From: Fibrobacter sp.
GTDB taxonomy: Bacteria > Fibrobacterota > Chitinivibrionia > Chitinivibrionales > Chitinispirillaceae
Assembly (NCBI GenBank): GCA_012513915.1
Contig: JAAZBG010000153.1
Span: 1 to 64,000, forward strand
Reading direction: 5' to 3'
Length of the DNA stretch: 64,000 nucleotides
Part shown: positions 18,115 through 61,092 of the stretch, piece after piece
Numbering within the stretch: position 1 is the stretch's first letter
Layout: each line of letters opens with the position of its first letter
The notes under the pieces: model-generated
What the model was told of the DNA's origin: nothing
Database searches by the model: none
What the model saw: the letters and a program-made list of their open reading frames with translations, nothing else
Made by a program: the position numbers and the translations under genes

Positions 18115-19068
18115 ATGAAAAAAGAACTACGTTCATTAGCGATGGTTCTGCCGTTATCGTTGTCCATGTTTACTTCATGTGATGTCTTATCTCCACTTGA
18201 TCCCGGTAATTCATCACCAACTGACAAAACGGAAACAGATATTGTTTCAGGACTCAAGGGGGCTCTGGTTCTTGGCGCTAAAACCGCAGCGTTTACATTA
18301 AGCGACACAAGCGGAAATCCAAATCAATTCAACGAGGTTACCGGATATTTTGCCAATGAGCTGACAAAGATAAATCTTCCAGCCGATGCCGTGAATGCAC
18401 TCAAGATGTTGGAGGGTCTTAACAACAGTGAAATCGGTAAAACGCTCCTTGATGCCGCAGGTATTGATATCTCGCAATATCGTGAATCGATGATCCTTGG
18501 ATTAAACCGGGGTGCAGAAATAGCCGCTGCTCTTTCTGTTGATGTCTTTGAAAAAGTAATACGTGAAATGGACATCCCATCAGCACAGGATATTCTGTTT
18601 GGTCAGGATTCAACTGCTGCAACAAGCTATTTACAAAGTACAACTAGTGATATCTTGACAAATGGATTTACACCTATTGTTGACAGTGTATTCAATGAGG
18701 TTATGGTAACTGCTTTCGGCAAACAGTTCACGGTTAATGATCTCTGGCGTGAATTTGCAGAAAATTACAATAACGTTGTCATAGAATATCAAAGACTTAC
18801 AACAGAAGCGGCATCAACAGATCCAATGGCAGTATTGGCACTGGAGGCTGCTATGTCTGACATTGGAATTACCTCTGTTGACCCACTCGACATCAACATT
18901 GCAAGCTTCGCAACAAGCGAGGCACTCGAAGGATTGTTTTATATGGTTGGTAAACAGGAAGTTAAAATCCGTCGTGATCCGGTTGCAGCATTATCAAACG
19001 CTATTAATTTTTATACCGATACACTCTACAATCTGATAATGACAATATTTTCAAAAACAACCGAGTGA
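18115..19068 (+). CDS. DUF4197-type lipoprotein, copy 1
   Basis: 317 residues. The signal peptide ends in FTSC (Cys ~22), a good lipobox, so the protein should be lipid-anchored in the periplasm or outer membrane. The remainder matches the DUF4197 pattern: GLKGALVLGAKTAA near the start, a helical body with ILGLNRGAEIAA, a TSYLQSTT segment and the C-terminal EGLFYMVGKQEVKIRRDP, where family members have a GLF-x-x-xxxEExxIR motif. The function of DUF4197 is unknown. The ribosome site is GGGGGG. The next gene is a close paralogue, and each copy is followed by the same type of hairpin. Confidence 0.85.
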   Translation: MKKELRSLAMVLPLSLSMFTSCDVLSPLDPGNSSPTDKTETDIVSGLKGALVLGAKTAAFTLSDTSGNPNQFNEVTGYFANELTKINLPADAVNALKMLEGLNNSEIGKTLLDAAGIDISQYRESMILGLNRGAEIAAALSVDVFEKVIREMDIPSAQDILFGQDSTAATSYLQSTTSDILTNGFTPIVDSVFNEVMVTAFGKQFTVNDLWREFAENYNNVVIEYQRLTTEAASTDPMAVLALEAAMSDIGITSVDPLDINIASFATSEALEGLFYMVGKQEVKIRRDPVAALSNAINFYTDTLYNLIMTIFSKTTE

Positions 19069-19093
19069 TAACTGCGCTACTACTATTTATTAA

Positions 19094-19125
19094 AACAGAG
19101 ACCTTTAAAGTGAAAGGTCTCTGTT
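19094..19125 (+). terminator. Hairpin terminator after DUF4197 copy 1
   Basis: AACAGAGACCTTT and AAAGGTCTCTGTT form a perfect 13-bp stem with a 6-nt loop, 25 bp after the stop codon. No T-run follows. A nearly identical stem follows the paralogue. Confidence 0.7.
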
Positions 19126-19322
19126 ACTGAGTTCTCAGATGCCTATGTCAAAAGGCTCACATGTAATTGCCAAAGTTTGCGTATCCCTGTCACAATAGTT
19201 TAACTGACCGTACCATTTATGTATATTATGTCAGCAGCAGTATAAAAATTTATGAGTCTGCCTGTTCGACTGAATTTCGATTCTATAATTCAGTGTTTGT
19301 ACATTTTAAAATGGAAGGTGTT

Positions 19323-20285
19323 ATGAAAAAAAGCAAACTATTTTTGGCACTGATATTGCCATTATCGACACTAATGCTTGCATCATGTGATTATGTATCT
19401 CAGTTTGAAGATCTAAATCCGTTATCAACAGAACTTACAGATTCAGAAATTATTGACGGCCTGAAGGAAGCGCTGGTGCTTGGATCTCAAACAGCCGCAA
19501 AAACATTAAGTGATACAAACGTGGGAACAAATTCATTCAATGAAGTTACCGGGTACCTTGCCAATGATCTGATCAGGATCAATCTCCCCCCTGATGCAGA
19601 AAAAGCAATTGCAACGATGGAACTTCTCAATTCCAATACTGTTGTTAAAACGCTGCTGACTGTTGCAGACATTGATTTTTCAAAATATCGTGACGCAATG
19701 ATCCTTGGACTAAACCGGGGAGCCGAAAAAGCAGCAGATCTTTCTGTTGATGTTTTTAAAACGGCAATACTTGAAATGACCTTTACATCTGCCCGTGATA
19801 TCCTGCTTAGCGGGGATTCAACCGCTGCAACAAAGTATTTAACTACAACAACAAGTGGTGTTTTGACAAGCGGCTTTACTCCTATTGTTGACAACACATT
19901 TAGTGCTGTCAAGGTAACTGCTTTCAGCAGAGAATTCACAGTTAAGGGTTTGTGGAGTGATTTTTCTGTAAACTACAATAAAGTTGCCGATGTCTATCAG
20001 ACTCTTAATACTAATGCTGCATCATCGAATTTTTTGACATCACAGGCAGCAAAAGCAAGTCTAAAATTAATTTCCGATGCAGGTGTTGAAGCTATTGACC
20101 CGCTCAACACCGACATTGTAAATTTCGCAACAGGTAAAGCACTTGACGGGTTGTTTTATATGGTTGGCAAACAGGAACTCAAAATTCGCCGTGATCCTAT
20201 GGCAGCGTTGGCAGCTGTGGGTGATTTAGTAACCCAGACTGTTAGCGATCTGATCAAGAAAGTATTTAAAAAAACAACGACCTGA
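19323..20285 (+). CDS. DUF4197-type lipoprotein, copy 2
   Basis: 320 residues from ATG 19323, which follows GGAAGG. The ORF-track start at 19167 is too early because it precedes the signal peptide. The lipobox is LASC (Cys ~21). It shares with the upstream gene GLKEALVLGSQTAAKTLSDT, ILGLNRGAEKAADLSVDVF, GFTPIVDN and GLFYMVGKQELKIRRDP, so the pair arose by tandem duplication. Copy 2 carries a short insertion before the C-terminal motif. Function is unknown; periplasmic or outer-membrane anchoring is inferred. Confidence 0.85.
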   Translation: MKKSKLFLALILPLSTLMLASCDYVSQFEDLNPLSTELTDSEIIDGLKEALVLGSQTAAKTLSDTNVGTNSFNEVTGYLANDLIRINLPPDAEKAIATMELLNSNTVVKTLLTVADIDFSKYRDAMILGLNRGAEKAADLSVDVFKTAILEMTFTSARDILLSGDSTAATKYLTTTTSGVLTSGFTPIVDNTFSAVKVTAFSREFTVKGLWSDFSVNYNKVADVYQTLNTNAASSNFLTSQAAKASLKLISDAGVEAIDPLNTDIVNFATGKALDGLFYMVGKQELKIRRDPMAALAAVGDLVTQTVSDLIKKVFKKTTT

Positions 20286-45125: not shown

Positions 45126-48100
45126 ATGTTTAAGAGAAAAATAATAGGAGCTCTATCGGCTATTGTACTTATGAGTGCCGGTATTTCAGGAGCTGATAAA
45201 TTTTCGGTAAAGATGCCGTACAAAGAGGTTACTGTAGACAATGTCAATGGAAAGGCTGTGTTTGACGGAACCACACTTTACGGACAAGCCGGACAGCCAA
45301 ATCTTCCATTCTATTCTGTAACATTTCTTTTGCCTTCAGATGCTGATATAGACAGGGTTTCTGTTGTACTTGAGAATGAAAAGGAGGTCGAGCTTGTCGA
45401 TCAATACGATGTGGACGCAGTTCTTCCACCTGTATCAGGAACAAAAACGCTTTGGCCAAAAGACCGAAGAATAGTCAATGGTAAAGATACTGACGTATAT
45501 GAAAAAGATGCGTTTTTCCCTGCTTCGAATGCCGGGAAATTATCGTTCAGTAAAATGGGCAACCATAATCTCGTGACAGTTCCGTTTTACCCGGTACGCT
45601 ACAATCCGGTTACTAAAAAGCTTAAAATGATTACCGGGGGGGATCTTTCTGTACTGATAGCCTCAGGATCTTCTTCGAAGGCAAGAACAAACAGTATGAG
45701 TTTTGCAGATCACCGTCAGGATGCATTACTTAAAAAACTGGCTGTTAATTATGAACAAATAGCGGCTGGCTACAACCAGAACAGATCATCAAAAGCGTAT
45801 AGGTCAAATGCAGCCCTTGCAGAAGCATCAACAGGTGATGTTTATGTTATTCTCACAGTAAAGGATATTATCAATAAATCTAAAGAGCTGCAGAATTTCA
45901 TACGCTCAAAGGAAAATCGCGGTTTTAATGTAAAGGTTATTGATGAAGACAAATGGGGCGGAAATACTGGTGATGCCGCGGCTGAAAATATGCGCACCTG
46001 GCTTAAGGGAAATTATCTTAAAGAAAGTATTAATTATGTTCTGCTTATTGGTAATCCCAACCCTGATACAGGTACTGTTCCTATGAAAATGGCTTGTACA
46101 CAACTTGACACCACCGATACAATCTTTTGTCCAACAGATTGTTACTATTCTGAACTCAGTGGAAATTGGGATCTGGATGGAGACGGACTGTTTGGTGAAT
46201 ATAATGGTGACTATGGTCCCGGTGGAGTTGATAAGGTCAACGAATTGTCGTTGGCAAGAATCCCGTATTATGATAACATCGAAGACCTTGACAAAATACT
46301 TGCCAAGATAATTACCTATGAAAACAGTGATGGTACATCGAGTTCCTGGCGTTCAAAGATACTGCTGCCTATGGAACCTTCTGATTACAGCACTCCAGGG
46401 TGTGATCTTGGAGAAGCGATCGTAAATGATGTTACAGACCCTGCGGGGTGGAAAAAAACCCGGATATATGAAAAAAACTACGGTGTCAATCCGGAAATAG
46501 TACCCACATCCACTGCTACAGTACTTCACAGCTGGAAGACTGATCCGGCAGGGCTTGTTATATGGTGGACCCACGGGTGGTATGAGTCCGCATCTGATAT
46601 AATGACCAGCAGATATGCTCAATATCTTGATGACCAATATCCGGCATTTACATTCCAGGTAAGCTGTTTGAACGCCCATCCCGAGACTCCGGATAATCTT
46701 TGTTATTCCATTCTCAAAAATGGCGGAATTTCTACAATTGGCGCAACAAGGGAATCATGGTACATGCCGGGGCAGGCAAATTTTGAGGCTTCAAATTCAA
46801 GAATATCATATGAATTTGCCAGGTCTTTTGTTAAAGATGGATTTAATGTTGGATCGGCTTTGACATCTGCAAAGAGCAACGTAAATATCGAGTCTGGGTG
46901 GCAGTTGTCGAACTGGATGATGTTCTGTATTTATGGAGACCCGGCTTTAAGCGTTTATACATCCACGGAAAACACATTACTGCTTGGTAATATACCTGAT
47001 CAAAAAAAATATGCAGGCGAAAAATTTGAAGATGTTGATCTTAATAGTTATGTTTTCAGTTCTGCATATGCCTCAAACGAGATTAATTGGAGTGTCAACG
47101 GCTATAGAGAATTGAGAGCGTCTATAGTAAACGGTGTCCTGTCGGTGATCACTCCGAACACCTTCTGGTCCGGTTCGGAAACACTAACCATTGAAGCAAG
47201 AACACCCGATGGTAAAACGCAAACGCATACGTTTAAATATCGTATGGTTGGAAGCGACATGGTTTATCTAAGTGATTTAGAACCGAGTTTCGCAACCGCA
47301 GGATGGTCATCTGTCAAAAAAGATATGAGCGTAGGTGGCAATCCGATTCGTATTGCCTCAGAGGAGTATAAAAAAGGTTTAGGGACTCATGCAAACTCGG
47401 AAATAGTATACAATATTAATGGTCAGTACGATATTTTTTCGGTTACTATCGGGGCAGATGATGAGACAGACGGTTCGGTTATTTTTGAAGTTCTCGGTGA
47501 TAATCAGAGGTTATTTAAAAGCGGTACTACAATGCAGAAGGGCTTTGCTGAGAAATGTAATATTGTAGTCAGGGGAGTACACGAACTGAGGCTGCTTGTC
47601 ACTGATGCATATAATGGCATTAATAGTGATCATGCCGACTGGGCGGATGCAAGACTAATCAAAAATGCAGGTATTAAAACAGTAAATGCGACTATTCATG
47701 AATATAGTTTTAATGGTTGCTGGCAGGACGCCTGGTCTTCAACTATATCTTACAAAAAGGGGGATCAGTGTACCTTTGCAGGAAATTCCTGGAGAGCACA
47801 TGAAGATAATTTTAATAACATTCCGACTGACACACAATCTTCCTGGTATGACCTTGGGCCATGTCCATCTTCCCAGACTCAATATTTCGGTTCTTTATCC
47901 CAATATGGAATAATTGCAGTTGAGTCGGGAGATCAATTGACATTGTCCCCCAATCCAGACTATAAATTTGAATTGACACAGCTGCTGATAGATGGACAAT
48001 CGGGAACATGCAACGTCAATGGAACCATTGATCTTGGTACAATTACTGATAACCGTACACTTGAGGTAACATTTGACAGAGAACAGAAAGGTTATCTTAG

Positions 48101-49709
48101 ATTGTCAAAAAAAGGTCTCAAGTACAATTATGAAGATTGTGTACTCGGTCAGGATAATTACGTACTCTTTGGAAAACCGGCATATGTATATGCTCTTCCG
48201 GTTGAAGGTTACCGCTTTGTCCGCTGGGAAAAAACCTCTGGTAATGCCAGAATAGAGCATCCTGAGAGTGAATATACTTGTGTATTTATGGATGGCGGTG
48301 CTAATATTGAGGCTGTTTACGAAGTCGATGACAATCCAGTGTACGAACTCTCCGTTGAACCAACGATATTCAAAACGGGGGCATCAGTTACGGTTACAGC
48401 ACCATCTTCAGCCAACGGAAAAGAAGTAACATTTACGCTATATAGAGTTTCCAAAAATGCAACAGTAGCGGGTGATTTTGTGGAAGAATTTACAAAAACA
48501 CTGAGAGCCGGCACTCAGACATTTACTTGTCCTTCATGGGATTACCTTCCTGTCGCTGGATATTATAATGTTGAGATGACGCATTCAGGAACACTTCTGG
48601 CAAAGGAATATTTCGAGAAATTATCGAATGTTTTTGAACTGAATTTGACAGCGACCTCTGCTCAGGTGACGGATAAAGTAACCTTATCTTTTGATAATCC
48701 AAGCCCATATCTGGTTGGAAAGACTGCAGACTTCAAATTGAGCTGTGGTAATTCAAGCTTTAAAATTTCAAAACAGATAGTAGAAGGCGTAAACATTTTT
48801 ACAGAGACACTCAGTGACAGATATTATCCTTTTGGAAAGTATGAAGTGACCATGTATATCGAAAATACTCAGCGTGGTACAGCATTTTTCGAAAAAATTT
48901 CAAAACAGTACAACCTCAACGTATCTGTAAAAAACATTGACTTTGGTACAATCGATGCAGGTACGACAAAAAAGAATATGGTGACATTAACAAATGATGG
49001 AAACAGCCCGGCTCTGATTTCAGATATTTTCATGAAGGAACCTTTTAGCGTTGAACAGAAAACGCCGATAACTGTTCCTGCCGGAGAATCAATTACTCTT
49101 ACAGTTCTGTATAAACCGCTTTCTGCTGGTAATTATAACGCTACCATGACGATAGTGAATGCACCTGATGCTCAGGTACAGACTCTTACGATTGGCCTTT
49201 CAGGGAGTGCTGAGAACGAGGTGATCGCAACCGGGTCATCATTTGAAATTATCATGATTCCCGATAGTGATCCAACCGGCAATTCAATTCAACCTCAATT
49301 TAAAATTAAAAATACCGGAAAGGATGATGTCGATCTGTCAAACGTTATTGTTGAATATTATACATGTGATCCTTTGGTTTCAGAAAAATCACTTAACGGA
49401 TTGATCTATTACTGCAGTGTTCCAAACGCTGAAACAGGTATACAATTCACCCGATTAAATCAGACCTTCGGAAATAATGATCTAAAGGCTGATACAAGAA
49501 TTGAATTCTATTTTAAGGGTGGATCGTTGGGTTCCGGCAAAAGTTTCGAATTAAAGGCAGGAATTAACGAGATCAACTGGGGACACAATTTCATGGAAAA
49601 CGATGACTGGTCCCATCAGGTGCAGACAGGAAACGTAGCACCAAATGTAGTGATTCGTGATAGGATATCAAATAAGATACTGTATGGTACGTTACCAGAT
49701 GGACTATGA
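45126..49709 (+). CDS. Gingipain-family (C25) protease with multiple carbohydrate-binding modules
   Basis: 1527 residues from ATG 45126 (AAAAGGA upstream; the ORF-track start is 15 codons early). Order: signal peptide; C25 propeptide (~25-190); C25 catalytic domain (~235-630), with catalytic His in WWTHGW (~480) and Cys in VSCLNAH (~512); NPCBM-like module (~710-846; GLGTHANSEIVY, VTIGADDETDG); CBM5/12-like chitin-binding module (~858-915; WSSTISYKKGDQCTFAGNSW); two beta-repeat segments (~920-1070); two Ig-like segments (~1070-1260); an ASH/DUF1573-like segment (~1262-1365; IDFGTIDAGTTKKNMVTLTN); and a CBM3-like module (~1370-1505; NSIQPQFKIKNTGKDDVDLS). No typical type IX sorting tail is seen at the end. 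It probably cuts proteins embedded in chitin- or cellulose-rich material. A bidirectional hairpin follows. Confidence 0.88.
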   Translation: MFKRKIIGALSAIVLMSAGISGADKFSVKMPYKEVTVDNVNGKAVFDGTTLYGQAGQPNLPFYSVTFLLPSDADIDRVSVVLENEKEVELVDQYDVDAVLPPVSGTKTLWPKDRRIVNGKDTDVYEKDAFFPASNAGKLSFSKMGNHNLVTVPFYPVRYNPVTKKLKMITGGDLSVLIASGSSSKARTNSMSFADHRQDALLKKLAVNYEQIAAGYNQNRSSKAYRSNAALAEASTGDVYVILTVKDIINKSKELQNFIRSKENRGFNVKVIDEDKWGGNTGDAAAENMRTWLKGNYLKESINYVLLIGNPNPDTGTVPMKMACTQLDTTDTIFCPTDCYYSELSGNWDLDGDGLFGEYNGDYGPGGVDKVNELSLARIPYYDNIEDLDKILAKIITYENSDGTSSSWRSKILLPMEPSDYSTPGCDLGEAIVNDVTDPAGWKKTRIYEKNYGVNPEIVPTSTATVLHSWKTDPAGLVIWWTHGWYESASDIMTSRYAQYLDDQYPAFTFQVSCLNAHPETPDNLCYSILKNGGISTIGATRESWYMPGQANFEASNSRISYEFARSFVKDGFNVGSALTSAKSNVNIESGWQLSNWMMFCIYGDPALSVYTSTENTLLLGNIPDQKKYAGEKFEDVDLNSYVFSSAYASNEINWSVNGYRELRASIVNGVLSVITPNTFWSGSETLTIEARTPDGKTQTHTFKYRMVGSDMVYLSDLEPSFATAGWSSVKKDMSVGGNPIRIASEEYKKGLGTHANSEIVYNINGQYDIFSVTIGADDETDGSVIFEVLGDNQRLFKSGTTMQKGFAEKCNIVVRGVHELRLLVTDAYNGINSDHADWADARLIKNAGIKTVNATIHEYSFNGCWQDAWSSTISYKKGDQCTFAGNSWRAHEDNFNNIPTDTQSSWYDLGPCPSSQTQYFGSLSQYGIIAVESGDQLTLSPNPDYKFELTQLLIDGQSGTCNVNGTIDLGTITDNRTLEVTFDREQKGYLRLSKKGLKYNYEDCVLGQDNYVLFGKPAYVYALPVEGYRFVRWEKTSGNARIEHPESEYTCVFMDGGANIEAVYEVDDNPVYELSVEPTIFKTGASVTVTAPSSANGKEVTFTLYRVSKNATVAGDFVEEFTKTLRAGTQTFTCPSWDYLPVAGYYNVEMTHSGTLLAKEYFEKLSNVFELNLTATSAQVTDKVTLSFDNPSPYLVGKTADFKLSCGNSSFKISKQIVEGVNIFTETLSDRYYPFGKYEVTMYIENTQRGTAFFEKISKQYNLNVSVKNIDFGTIDAGTTKKNMVTLTNDGNSPALISDIFMKEPFSVEQKTPITVPAGESITLTVLYKPLSAGNYNATMTIVNAPDAQVQTLTIGLSGSAENEVIATGSSFEIIMIPDSDPTGNSIQPQFKIKNTGKDDVDLSNVIVEYYTCDPLVSEKSLNGLIYYCSVPNAETGIQFTRLNQTFGNNDLKADTRIEFYFKGGSLGSGKSFELKAGINEINWGHNFMENDDWSHQVQTGNVAPNVVIRDRISNKILYGTLPDGL

Positions 49710-58223: not shown

Positions 58224-60233
58224 ATGAAATTTAAACTCGCATCTACCTACAAACCAGCCGGAGATCAACCTCAGGCAATAAAAGATCTTGTCACCGGTGT
58301 TCGCAGCGATCAGAAACAGCAGGTACTCCTTGGCGTTACCGGCTCAGGGAAAACCTTTACCATCGCCAACGTCATCGAACAACTACAGCTTCCCACACTG
58401 ATTATTTCTCATAATAAAACACTCGCTGCTCAGCTTTTTCAGGAGTTCAGAGAGTTCTTTCCTGAAAATGCGGTGGAGTACTTCGTCTCTTTTTACGATT
58501 ATTATCAACCCGAAGCCTACATTCCATCTACCGATACCTTCATCGAAAAAACATCAATGATCAACGATGAGATTGACCGGCTCCGCCTTAAAGCAACAAG
58601 TTCACTTCTATCAAGAAACGATGTAATCATCGTCGCCAGTGTTTCATGCATCTATGGTATCGGTTCCCCCGACGCCTATCTCGCATCAAGTGTGCGTGTC
58701 AAGGTTGGTGATCATCTCGAACGACGCAGTTTCCTTAAAAGCCTGACCGAAATGCAGTATACCCGAAACGATATATCACTACAGCGTGCTACCTTCAGGG
58801 TGAAGGGTGATGTCTATGAACTGCAGCCAGCCTATGATGAGAATGCATTACGATTCGAGACTTTTGGTGATACCATTGAGGCGATCCATATAGTCAATCC
58901 GGTCACGGGAAAAATTATGGGTTCACTTGACGAAGTAACCATTTTTCCTGCCAAGCACTACATGACCCTTGACCTCAGCATGGACAACGCTATTGCGCAG
59001 ATACAATCAGAACTGGAGTCACAGCTTGAACGGTTTAAAAGTGAAAACAAACTAGTTGAAGCGCAGAGGCTTGAGCAGCGTACCAATTACGATATCGAAA
59101 TGCTCCGTGAGGTCGGGTATGTTAACGGCATCGAAAACTACTCACGAATTCTTGACGGTCGCGAGGCAGGTACCCGCCCCTATACCCTGATCGATTTCTT
59201 CAGGAAACCCTACCTGCTGGTCATTGATGAATCACATGTGTCACTGCCGCAGATTCAGGGAATGTATAATGGTGACCGGGCACGAAAACAAACACTTGTC
59301 GATCACGGCTTCAGACTCCCCTGCGCGCTTGACAACAGACCTCTGCGTTTCGCAGAGTTCGAAACACTTGCCGATAATGTGATCTACGTTTCAGCGACTC
59401 CCGGAGACTATGAACTTAATCAGAGCGGTGGTGTATTTGTAGAGCAGGTGATCCGCCCGACACACCTTGTCGATCCGCCGATTGAAATCCGCCCGGCAAC
59501 AAATCAGGTTGATGATCTTATCGAGCAGCTCAGGGGAATTGCCGAAAAAGGCGAACGGGCACTTGTAACAACACTTACTAAAAAGATGTCTGAAGACCTG
59601 ACCGCGTACCTCGAAAAAATAAATTTCCGGGTGAAGTATCTTCATTCAGAAATCGATACCCTTGAACGGACCGATATCCTGCGTGATCTTCGAAAAGGCG
59701 AGTTCGACATTCTCATCGGTATCAACCTTCTCAGAGAAGGTCTTGATCTTCCGGAAGTCGCCCTTGTTGCCATCCTCGATGCAGACAAAGAGGGATTTCT
59801 ACGATCTGCCAGATCGATTATTCAGATCTCGGGACGTGCGGCACGTAATATCAACGGACGAATTATTCTCTACGCCGATACAATGACCGACTCGATCAAT
59901 AAAGCGGTATCCGAAAGTGAGCGGAGACGTCATAAACAACTTGAATACAACATTAAACATAATATTATACCGAAAAGTGTTGTTCGAAAAATTGATGATG
60001 GTATAATATATGGTGCCAGTGTGGAATCAGATCAATACCTTGCAGCAGCTGAACCTGCAGCGGCGTATGGATCACCGGCCGGTAAAGGCAGAGCAAAGAA
60101 AAAATCATCAAAGAAGACGACAATCCAGGATCTCGAAAAAGAGATGGCTGATGCAGCAAAGAAACTCGATTTTGAACGTGCTGCAATTCTTCGGGACAAA
60201 ATTGCTGAATTACGGAGTACCAATGGATCTTGA
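58224..60233 (+). CDS. uvrB: Excinuclease ABC subunit B
   Basis: 669 residues. Walker A TGSGKT (~39), the damage-probing beta-hairpin block FYDYYQPEAYIPSTDT (~92), DESHVSLPQIQGMYNGD, INLLREGLDLPEV, QISGRAARN and the C-terminal UVR motif (LEKEMADAAKKLDFERAAILRDKI) that binds UvrC are all present. It receives damaged DNA from UvrA in nucleotide-excision repair. It ends 11 bp inside the HEAT-repeat gene. Confidence 0.97.
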   Translation: MKFKLASTYKPAGDQPQAIKDLVTGVRSDQKQQVLLGVTGSGKTFTIANVIEQLQLPTLIISHNKTLAAQLFQEFREFFPENAVEYFVSFYDYYQPEAYIPSTDTFIEKTSMINDEIDRLRLKATSSLLSRNDVIIVASVSCIYGIGSPDAYLASSVRVKVGDHLERRSFLKSLTEMQYTRNDISLQRATFRVKGDVYELQPAYDENALRFETFGDTIEAIHIVNPVTGKIMGSLDEVTIFPAKHYMTLDLSMDNAIAQIQSELESQLERFKSENKLVEAQRLEQRTNYDIEMLREVGYVNGIENYSRILDGREAGTRPYTLIDFFRKPYLLVIDESHVSLPQIQGMYNGDRARKQTLVDHGFRLPCALDNRPLRFAEFETLADNVIYVSATPGDYELNQSGGVFVEQVIRPTHLVDPPIEIRPATNQVDDLIEQLRGIAEKGERALVTTLTKKMSEDLTAYLEKINFRVKYLHSEIDTLERTDILRDLRKGEFDILIGINLLREGLDLPEVALVAILDADKEGFLRSARSIIQISGRAARNINGRIILYADTMTDSINKAVSESERRRHKQLEYNIKHNIIPKSVVRKIDDGIIYGASVESDQYLAAAEPAAAYGSPAGKGRAKKKSSKKTTIQDLEKEMADAAKKLDFERAAILRDKIAELRSTNGS

Positions 60234-61092
60234 GCAGGCCAGAACCAATCTAACAGGTGCCTCCACCGACATAACACTTGTTGCGCTCAGAATTCTTGGA
60301 AAAAACGGAAAATTAAATGATCTTCAATCAGTTCTTGCTCTGGTAAAAAGCACAAATCCGTCCATTCGTAATGCTTCGATACAGGCATCAAGCGGTCTGA
60401 TAAAAGAAAATCTCATCAATCACTATCATGATCTTGATCATTCAGTCAGAGAAAAACTCGGTCAATTACTGCACTCACTTGATCCATCGGTGGTTAATGA
60501 GATCAGTAACGACCTCTACTCCGATATCGAGGAACGCCGGGTCCGTGCGGTACAGATTCTTGGCCTCCTGAAAAAGCATCCGCAGCTCAGAGAGATCCTC
60601 GCAAAGCTGATTCATAGCAAAGATGTAAAAATCCGGGCAACTGCAGTTTGCCTGCTGGGGAGAATCATCGGTCCGAATGATCATGATCTTATACTGTCGC
60701 TATTGAACGACAAAGATCTCAGAGTTCGCGCCAACACCATCGAAGCACTTGAGTCAATTAACAACAAGCGAATAGTACCTATTCTGCTGCGTTTCAGAAA
60801 AGATCATAATAACAGAATCCGCGGAAACGTATTAAAAGCACTTTACAATCTTGGATTTACTGAAATAGAACCGGATCTTACCGAAATGCTTAAAAGCACA
60901 AACCACCTCATGCAGGCGTCGGCGATCTGGGTTATGTCAAAAATAAAATATTCATCAAACAGTATTGAAGATCTTATTGCATTTTGTCTGCTCTCAGATC
61001 ACGAAGTAGTCACCAGCAATGCAAAAAAAACACTCCGACATATACATACACCAAGAGCTGAAGGGTATCTGAAGTACCTGGAAGTGCAGTAA
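60223..61092 (+). CDS. HEAT-repeat protein
   Basis: 289 residues from ATG 60223, which follows GGAG; the ORF track starts 71 codons early inside uvrB. The protein is a run of HEAT-like helix pairs (RVRAVQILGLLKK, KIRATAVCLLGRII, RVRANTIEALESI, RIRGNVLKALYNLG) forming a solenoid for protein contacts. No enzymatic motif is seen. It overlaps uvrB by 11 bp, so translation may be coupled, but a role in repair is not shown by the sequence. Confidence 0.85.
   Translation: MDLEQARTNLTGASTDITLVALRILGKNGKLNDLQSVLALVKSTNPSIRNASIQASSGLIKENLINHYHDLDHSVREKLGQLLHSLDPSVVNEISNDLYSDIEERRVRAVQILGLLKKHPQLREILAKLIHSKDVKIRATAVCLLGRIIGPNDHDLILSLLNDKDLRVRANTIEALESINNKRIVPILLRFRKDHNNRIRGNVLKALYNLGFTEIEPDLTEMLKSTNHLMQASAIWVMSKIKYSSNSIEDLIAFCLLSDHEVVTSNAKKTLRHIHTPRAEGYLKYLEVQ

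Follow-up and report, generated by a model that had tools for sequence, protein, structure and literature searches.

Why should a gingipain-type protease carry the binding modules that usually belong to glycoside hydrolases, and what would such a protein act upon? The question is raised by an open reading frame in the window, the 64,000-nucleotide stretch analysed here (positions 1 to 64,000, forward strand, of contig JAAZBG010000153.1 in the Fibrobacter sp. assembly GCA_012513915.1, lineage Chitinispirillaceae of the Fibrobacterota). It occupies 45126–49709 of the window on the plus strand, begins with the ATG at 45126 and encodes 1527 amino acids. An initial annotation, made from the sequence alone, had read it as a peptidase of family C25 that is targeted to chitin or cellulose by carbohydrate-binding modules (CBMs). 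We find that the protein belongs to family C25 and has both an NPCBM and a CBM3 in its tail, and we propose, with a probability of roughly 0.55, that it is an exported, substrate-anchored C25 protease digesting proteins or glycoproteins in cellulosic biomass.

Assignment to peptidase family C25

Family, fold and the order of the His-Cys dyad all place the window protein in peptidase family C25. The features of its N-terminal part are as follows.

45126–45194, plus strand: Sec-type signal peptide MFKRKIIGALSAIVLMSAGISGA, without a lipobox; n-region FKRK, then a hydrophobic core with a Kyte-Doolittle maximum of 2.7; extent estimated
45261–45686, plus strand: gingipain-type pro-domain, Propeptide_C25 (PF08126, E 5.8e-8; fold match to the RgpB pro-domain 4ief)
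45843–46955, plus strand: peptidase C25 catalytic domain (PF01364, 114.4 bits; AlphaFold2 pLDDT 85)
46572–46574, plus strand: catalytic His483 in WWTHG, invariant in 66 homologues (position 459 + 24)
46665–46667, plus strand: catalytic Cys514 in FQVSC, at least 90% conserved in 66 homologues (position 490 + 24)

In the whole-genome search the catalytic domain covers the full PF01364 profile (1–374 of 374) and far exceeds its cut-off of 23 bits, while the pro-domain scores 32.5 bits against a cut-off of 22. An hmmscan of the window protein did not list PF01364; it lists this family for the orthologue L027 and also for L028 and L030. As a sequence profile searched against the PDB, the catalytic region reached only gingipain pro-domains, so a fold search was needed to place the catalytic domain itself. 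The AlphaFold2 model, built on the 66 homologues, has a predicted local distance difference test score (pLDDT) of 85 and a predicted template modelling score of 0.83, and its ten PDB matches at E≤0.001 all come from gingipains, either catalytic domains or pro-domains, with RgpB (1cvr) and Kgp (6i9a) at the top and 4ief also among them. The gingipain-type catalytic domain of the initial annotation, with His and Cys in place, is thus borne out, and the domain is predicted to be an active peptidase.

The nearest characterized proteins are the gingipains RgpB and Kgp of Porphyromonas gingivalis (MEROPS family C25), which share with the window protein the pro-domain and the C25 fold with its His-Cys dyad. 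Identity in the fold alignment is only ~17%, and the two differ at the C-terminus: gingipains end in adhesin or immunoglobulin (Ig)-like modules and a C-terminal domain for the type IX secretion system (T9SS), whereas the window protein ends in CBM modules.

Composition of the tail

Judged by profile scores, the region beyond the catalytic domain contains two credible CBM-type modules, NPCBM and CBM3, and one that has degenerated, CBM5/12, separated by other segments.

47262–47657 (residues 713–844), plus strand: NPCBM/NEW2 module, CBM51 (PF08305, 148–154 bits, E 1.9e-43)
47730–47846, plus strand: degenerate CBM5/12-like module (17.8–22.7 bits; PF02839 cut-off 26.2)
47877–48326, plus strand: two InlB-B/Flg_new-like segments, the first seen by eye only, the second matching PF18998 (28.7 bits, residues 1008–1067)
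48417–48899, plus strand: two Ig-like spacer segments, by repeat pattern on inspection and with no Pfam match
48915–49193 (residues 1264–1356), plus strand: ASH/HYDIN-like/choice-of-anchor D Ig module (NF012200, 50.3 bits; PF22544, 45.9 bits)
49263–49706 (residues 1380–1527), plus strand: CBM3 of the cellulose-binding type, closing the protein (PF00942, 29.2–34 bits; cut-off 22.4)

At 148.2 bits against a cut-off of 23.9, NPCBM leaves no doubt and exceeds every other non-catalytic match by a wide margin. Its best PDB sequence matches are 7js4, which we take to be the M60 peptidase ZmpB, and then chains of 2vmg/2vmh. The module is a hint that the ligand is of galactose type or a glycoprotein and not chitin or cellulose. 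The M60 catalytic domain itself (PF13402) is absent from the Pfam scan of the window protein. In phmmer searches the best PDB matches of the CBM3 are all CBM3 chains (6d5b, 4b9f and 1nbc, E 1e-9 to 7e-9). The equivalent of W118 in CipA is present in the CBM3 of the window protein and of its relative L027 and absent from those of the host's GH9 cellulases. Given the score, the matches to CBM3 chains and this tryptophan on the one hand, and the other residues of the binding strip, which are not kept in an alignment of doubtful loops, on the other, cellulose binding by the module is plausible. An AlphaFold2 model of the CBM3 alone reached a pLDDT of 34 and was not used.

The CBM5/12 segment fares differently. 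Chitin binding by CBM5 depends on an exposed aromatic WW pair, and where L027 reads AKWWTQGQEP the window protein reads AHEDNFNNIP; with its score below the cut-off, the segment would be a degenerate member of the fold family at best. Of the modules named by the initial annotation, NPCBM and CBM3 therefore withstand the profile check and CBM5/12 falls short of it, while of its Ig-like and ASH-like segments the ASH module is matched by profile and the two Ig-like segments stay recognizable by inspection. The annotation had also seen no obvious sorting tail, and we agree: neither Pfam nor NCBIfam gives a match to Por_Secre_tail or any other sorting tail in the window protein.

Relatives within the Fibrobacterota

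The closest relative, L027 (G016:C146), comes from a different genus, with 52% identity over the pro-domain and catalytic domain and 50% to the end of NPCBM. The two proteins have the module order pro-domain, C25, NPCBM, CBM5/12, InlB, ASH and CBM3 in common, and in the relative the CBM5/12 is intact (32–37 bits). The L027 gene (2234–7179, minus strand, within G016:C146:15000-26000) is read in two overlapping frames, the frame changing after CBM5/12 and before the remaining tail modules; the split may be an assembly error or a real frameshift. Matches at E≤1e-20 occur in 13 of the 168 genomes of the phylum, and in four of these 13 they are to the NPCBM of another protein, namely an esterase-like protein, a phosphoesterase, an alpha-galactosidase and an open reading frame without another Pfam domain.

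C25 relatives across phyla

A scan of GTDB genomes retained 80 C25 loci from many phyla, archaea included, and 48 of them were scanned one by one with Pfam, as C-terminal tails or whole proteins. CBM-type modules above the Pfam cut-off were found in six.

L043, Spirochaetales: malectin, CBM6 and CBM4_9
L044, Firmicutes metagenome-assembled genome (MAG): three CBM25
L054, Fibrobacterota: two CBM3
L067, Bacillota: two CBM4_9
L085, Phycisphaerales: CBM6/35
L051, Chitinispirillaceae: two F5/8C

Fusion of C25 to CBMs thus recurs across phyla as a minority trait. These six proteins resemble the window protein in joining a domain of the C25 clade to C-terminal CBM-type modules, but mostly of other families (CBM25, CBM6/35, CBM4_9, malectin, F5/8C), and L054 alone shares CBM3. 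Neither NPCBM nor CBM5/12 was found in any of the 48. The remaining tails consist mostly of Ig, Fn3, BACON, FG-GAP, laminin-G or beta-helix domains or have no Pfam match. Local hidden Markov models, made from two to five of our own sequences, had suggested that NPCBM, CBM5/12 and CBM3 are all missing from other C25 relatives; these profiles were too narrow, and for CBM3 the suggestion was rejected on the two CBM3 that Pfam found in L054.

Two further relatives have unusual architectures. In a Desulfobacteraceae MAG (L086:9147-12902) a papain-family (C1) domain is joined straight onto the C25 relative, a multi-protease polypeptide that matches C13 as well, and in a Spirochaetes MAG (L083:2588-11671) the C25 relative lies in an open frame of 3028 amino acids whose tail has many RCC1 repeats and PASTA domains.

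Host genome and gene surroundings

The host genome is a draft rated 99.97% complete with an estimated contamination of 8%, because of which claims of absence from it are provisional. It encodes three GH9 cellulases with CBM3, and both NPCBM and CBM5/12 were found in it only in the window protein, NPCBM as a single copy. No GH18 was detected in this draft, while control genomes gave matches; a search for GH19 also gave no match, and is uninformative since the controls likewise gave none. As to secretion, the genome encodes a homologue of the T9SS component SprA, two of the three GH9-CBM3 cellulases have a weak Por-type tail below the cut-off, and its secretins match the GspD model with a score below its cut-off. 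Export of the window protein by the T9SS via a sorting tail was rejected for lack of such a tail, despite SprA; release from the cell would probably take another route.

The host has other C25 proteins. One paralogue (on C127) carries Fn3 and F5/8C modules and runs off the end of its contig. Another, L001 (G000:C334:30964-32058), has an open frame of 1337 amino acids with an FlgD/T9SS-type tail at its end; its size and tail suggest that it may be a PorU-like T9SS sortase.

In its own neighbourhood the gene of the window protein stands alone. By inspection of open reading frames it is flanked by an Rnf/Nqr-type electron-transport operon and by flagellar genes on the opposite strand, with largely housekeeping genes farther out. 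Elsewhere in the window, two adjoining DUF4197 genes (317 and 372 amino acids) form a tandem pair at 18115–20285, and a HEAT-repeat open reading frame at 60010–61092 shares ~220 bases with the uvrB frame (58224–60233) on the same strand, and translation of the HEAT-repeat protein probably starts downstream of the listed position.

Function of the protein and competing explanations

If the protein is a substrate-anchored protease of cellulosic biomass, it would be made as a zymogen, and after removal of the pro-domain the His483/Cys514 dyad would cleave proteins, while CBM3 and NPCBM/CBM51 would hold the enzyme on the biomass and its glycoproteins, with the Ig, ASH and InlB-B modules acting as spacers. 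The likely gain would be protein-derived nitrogen together with better access to cellulose for the GH9-CBM3 cellulases of the host. Binding to polysaccharide and synergy with cellulases are predicted, and it is plausible, as the initial annotation had it, that by removing matrix proteins the protease opens the way for hydrolases. Several observations weigh against this interpretation. The protein has no T9SS tail, so that its extracellular export is presumptive. Only W118 of the five residues that we take to form the cellulose-binding strip of CipA is kept in the CBM3 (D56, H57, Y67 and R112 are not), with a doubtful alignment in the loops. We recognized no glycoside hydrolase or CBM-bearing neighbour of the gene. 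Finally, most C25 relatives have tails of generic Ig/Fn3/BACON type, so a tail on a C25 protein need not mean targeting to polysaccharide.

The last point is also the starting point of a different explanation, in which the protein is a protease of general nutrition or surface processing, with a tail that serves only as a stalk or in protein-protein adhesion and CBM-like modules that no longer bind sugar. The degenerate CBM5/12 and the mostly unconserved strip of CBM3 fit this picture, but the very strong NPCBM and the retention of W118 in both orthologues do not, and we regard it as unlikely. Alternatively, NPCBM/CBM51 could read glycans on the protein substrate itself, be it plant arabinogalactan proteins or algal or animal glycoproteins, the other modules being structural; the protein would then be a mucinase-type glycoprotein protease in the manner of Clostridium perfringens ZmpB or Akkermansia AMUC_1438, with a C25 domain. 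The strength and the best PDB sequence match of NPCBM speak for this, as does the about 2-fold increase that CBM51 brings to AMUC_1438 activity (PMC13003899). The C-terminal CBM3, kept in both orthologues, points also to a fibrous polysaccharide. We regard a mucinase-type role as distinctly unlikely.

Chitin is where the first interpretation is weakest. A chitin-directed deproteinase would be anchored by CBM5/12 to arthropod cuticle or fungal wall and strip proteins for chitinases, and such a module is present, intact in the G016 relative, whose genome also has one GH18. In the window protein, however, the module scores below the cut-off and the WW pair is missing, the search for GH18 in the host genome gave no match, and the GH18 of G016 is a single case, with GH18 found as well in the relatives G018 and G014, where CBM5/12 was not. 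We have therefore dropped chitin as the leading idea and consider it very unlikely. Cellulose or plant wall, the other half of the target first proposed, agrees better with the CBM3 and with a host that has three GH9-CBM3 cellulases and no detectable GH18, and a protease anchored to cellulosic biomass is the reading that we retain.

Relation to known CBM-bearing proteases

Targeting of proteolysis by CBMs is an established strategy, as CBM-bearing proteases are known among the M60-like mucinases and many MEROPS families. M60-like mucinases carry CBM32, CBM51 and CBM5_12 (PMC3267712). In ZmpA/B/C and AMUC_1438 (PMC3267712, PMC13003899), as in the window protein, an extracellular protease is joined to NPCBM/CBM51, sometimes with CBM5_12, the CBM aiming the protease at glycans; their catalytic folds are not C25, they are mostly host-associated and CBM3 is not reported there, so that the resemblance is one of strategy only. 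A peptidase-type module tied to a cellulose-degrading apparatus is found in the cellulosome of Ruminococcus flavefaciens (PMC3573020), where it is a papain-like module in a cellulosome-related protein, not a C25 domain with its own CBMs. In the 2012 MEROPS survey CBM32 occurs on 16 peptidase families and CBM5_12 on nine, with C25 on neither list, and CBM51 occurs on no entry (PMC3267712). Searches of open-access text, a coverage that leaves out most subscription journals, turned up no publication that joins C25 and CBMs. Within that reach the combination is undescribed, and its novelty lies in the catalytic family together with the set of NPCBM plus CBM3.

Implications

We tentatively envisage, at somewhat less than an even chance, an environmental C25 clade spanning many phyla that has repeatedly and independently gained CBM3, CBM4_9, CBM6/35, CBM25, NPCBM and F5/8C modules, giving a distinct set of polysaccharide-anchored proteases that would act alongside glycoside hydrolases where biomass is broken down anaerobically; the window protein, by virtue of its NPCBM and CBM3, would be among its most elaborate members. 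Accounts of plant-biomass degradation centre on glycoside hydrolases; proteins coating or crosslinking cellulose receive less attention. A C25 enzyme with cellulose- and glycan-type modules in a cellulolytic member of the Fibrobacterota, with relatives elsewhere that carry other CBMs, would make polysaccharide-targeted proteolysis a testable part of biomass breakdown, and would extend the idea of the CBM-bearing protease from host mucus to environmental polymers.

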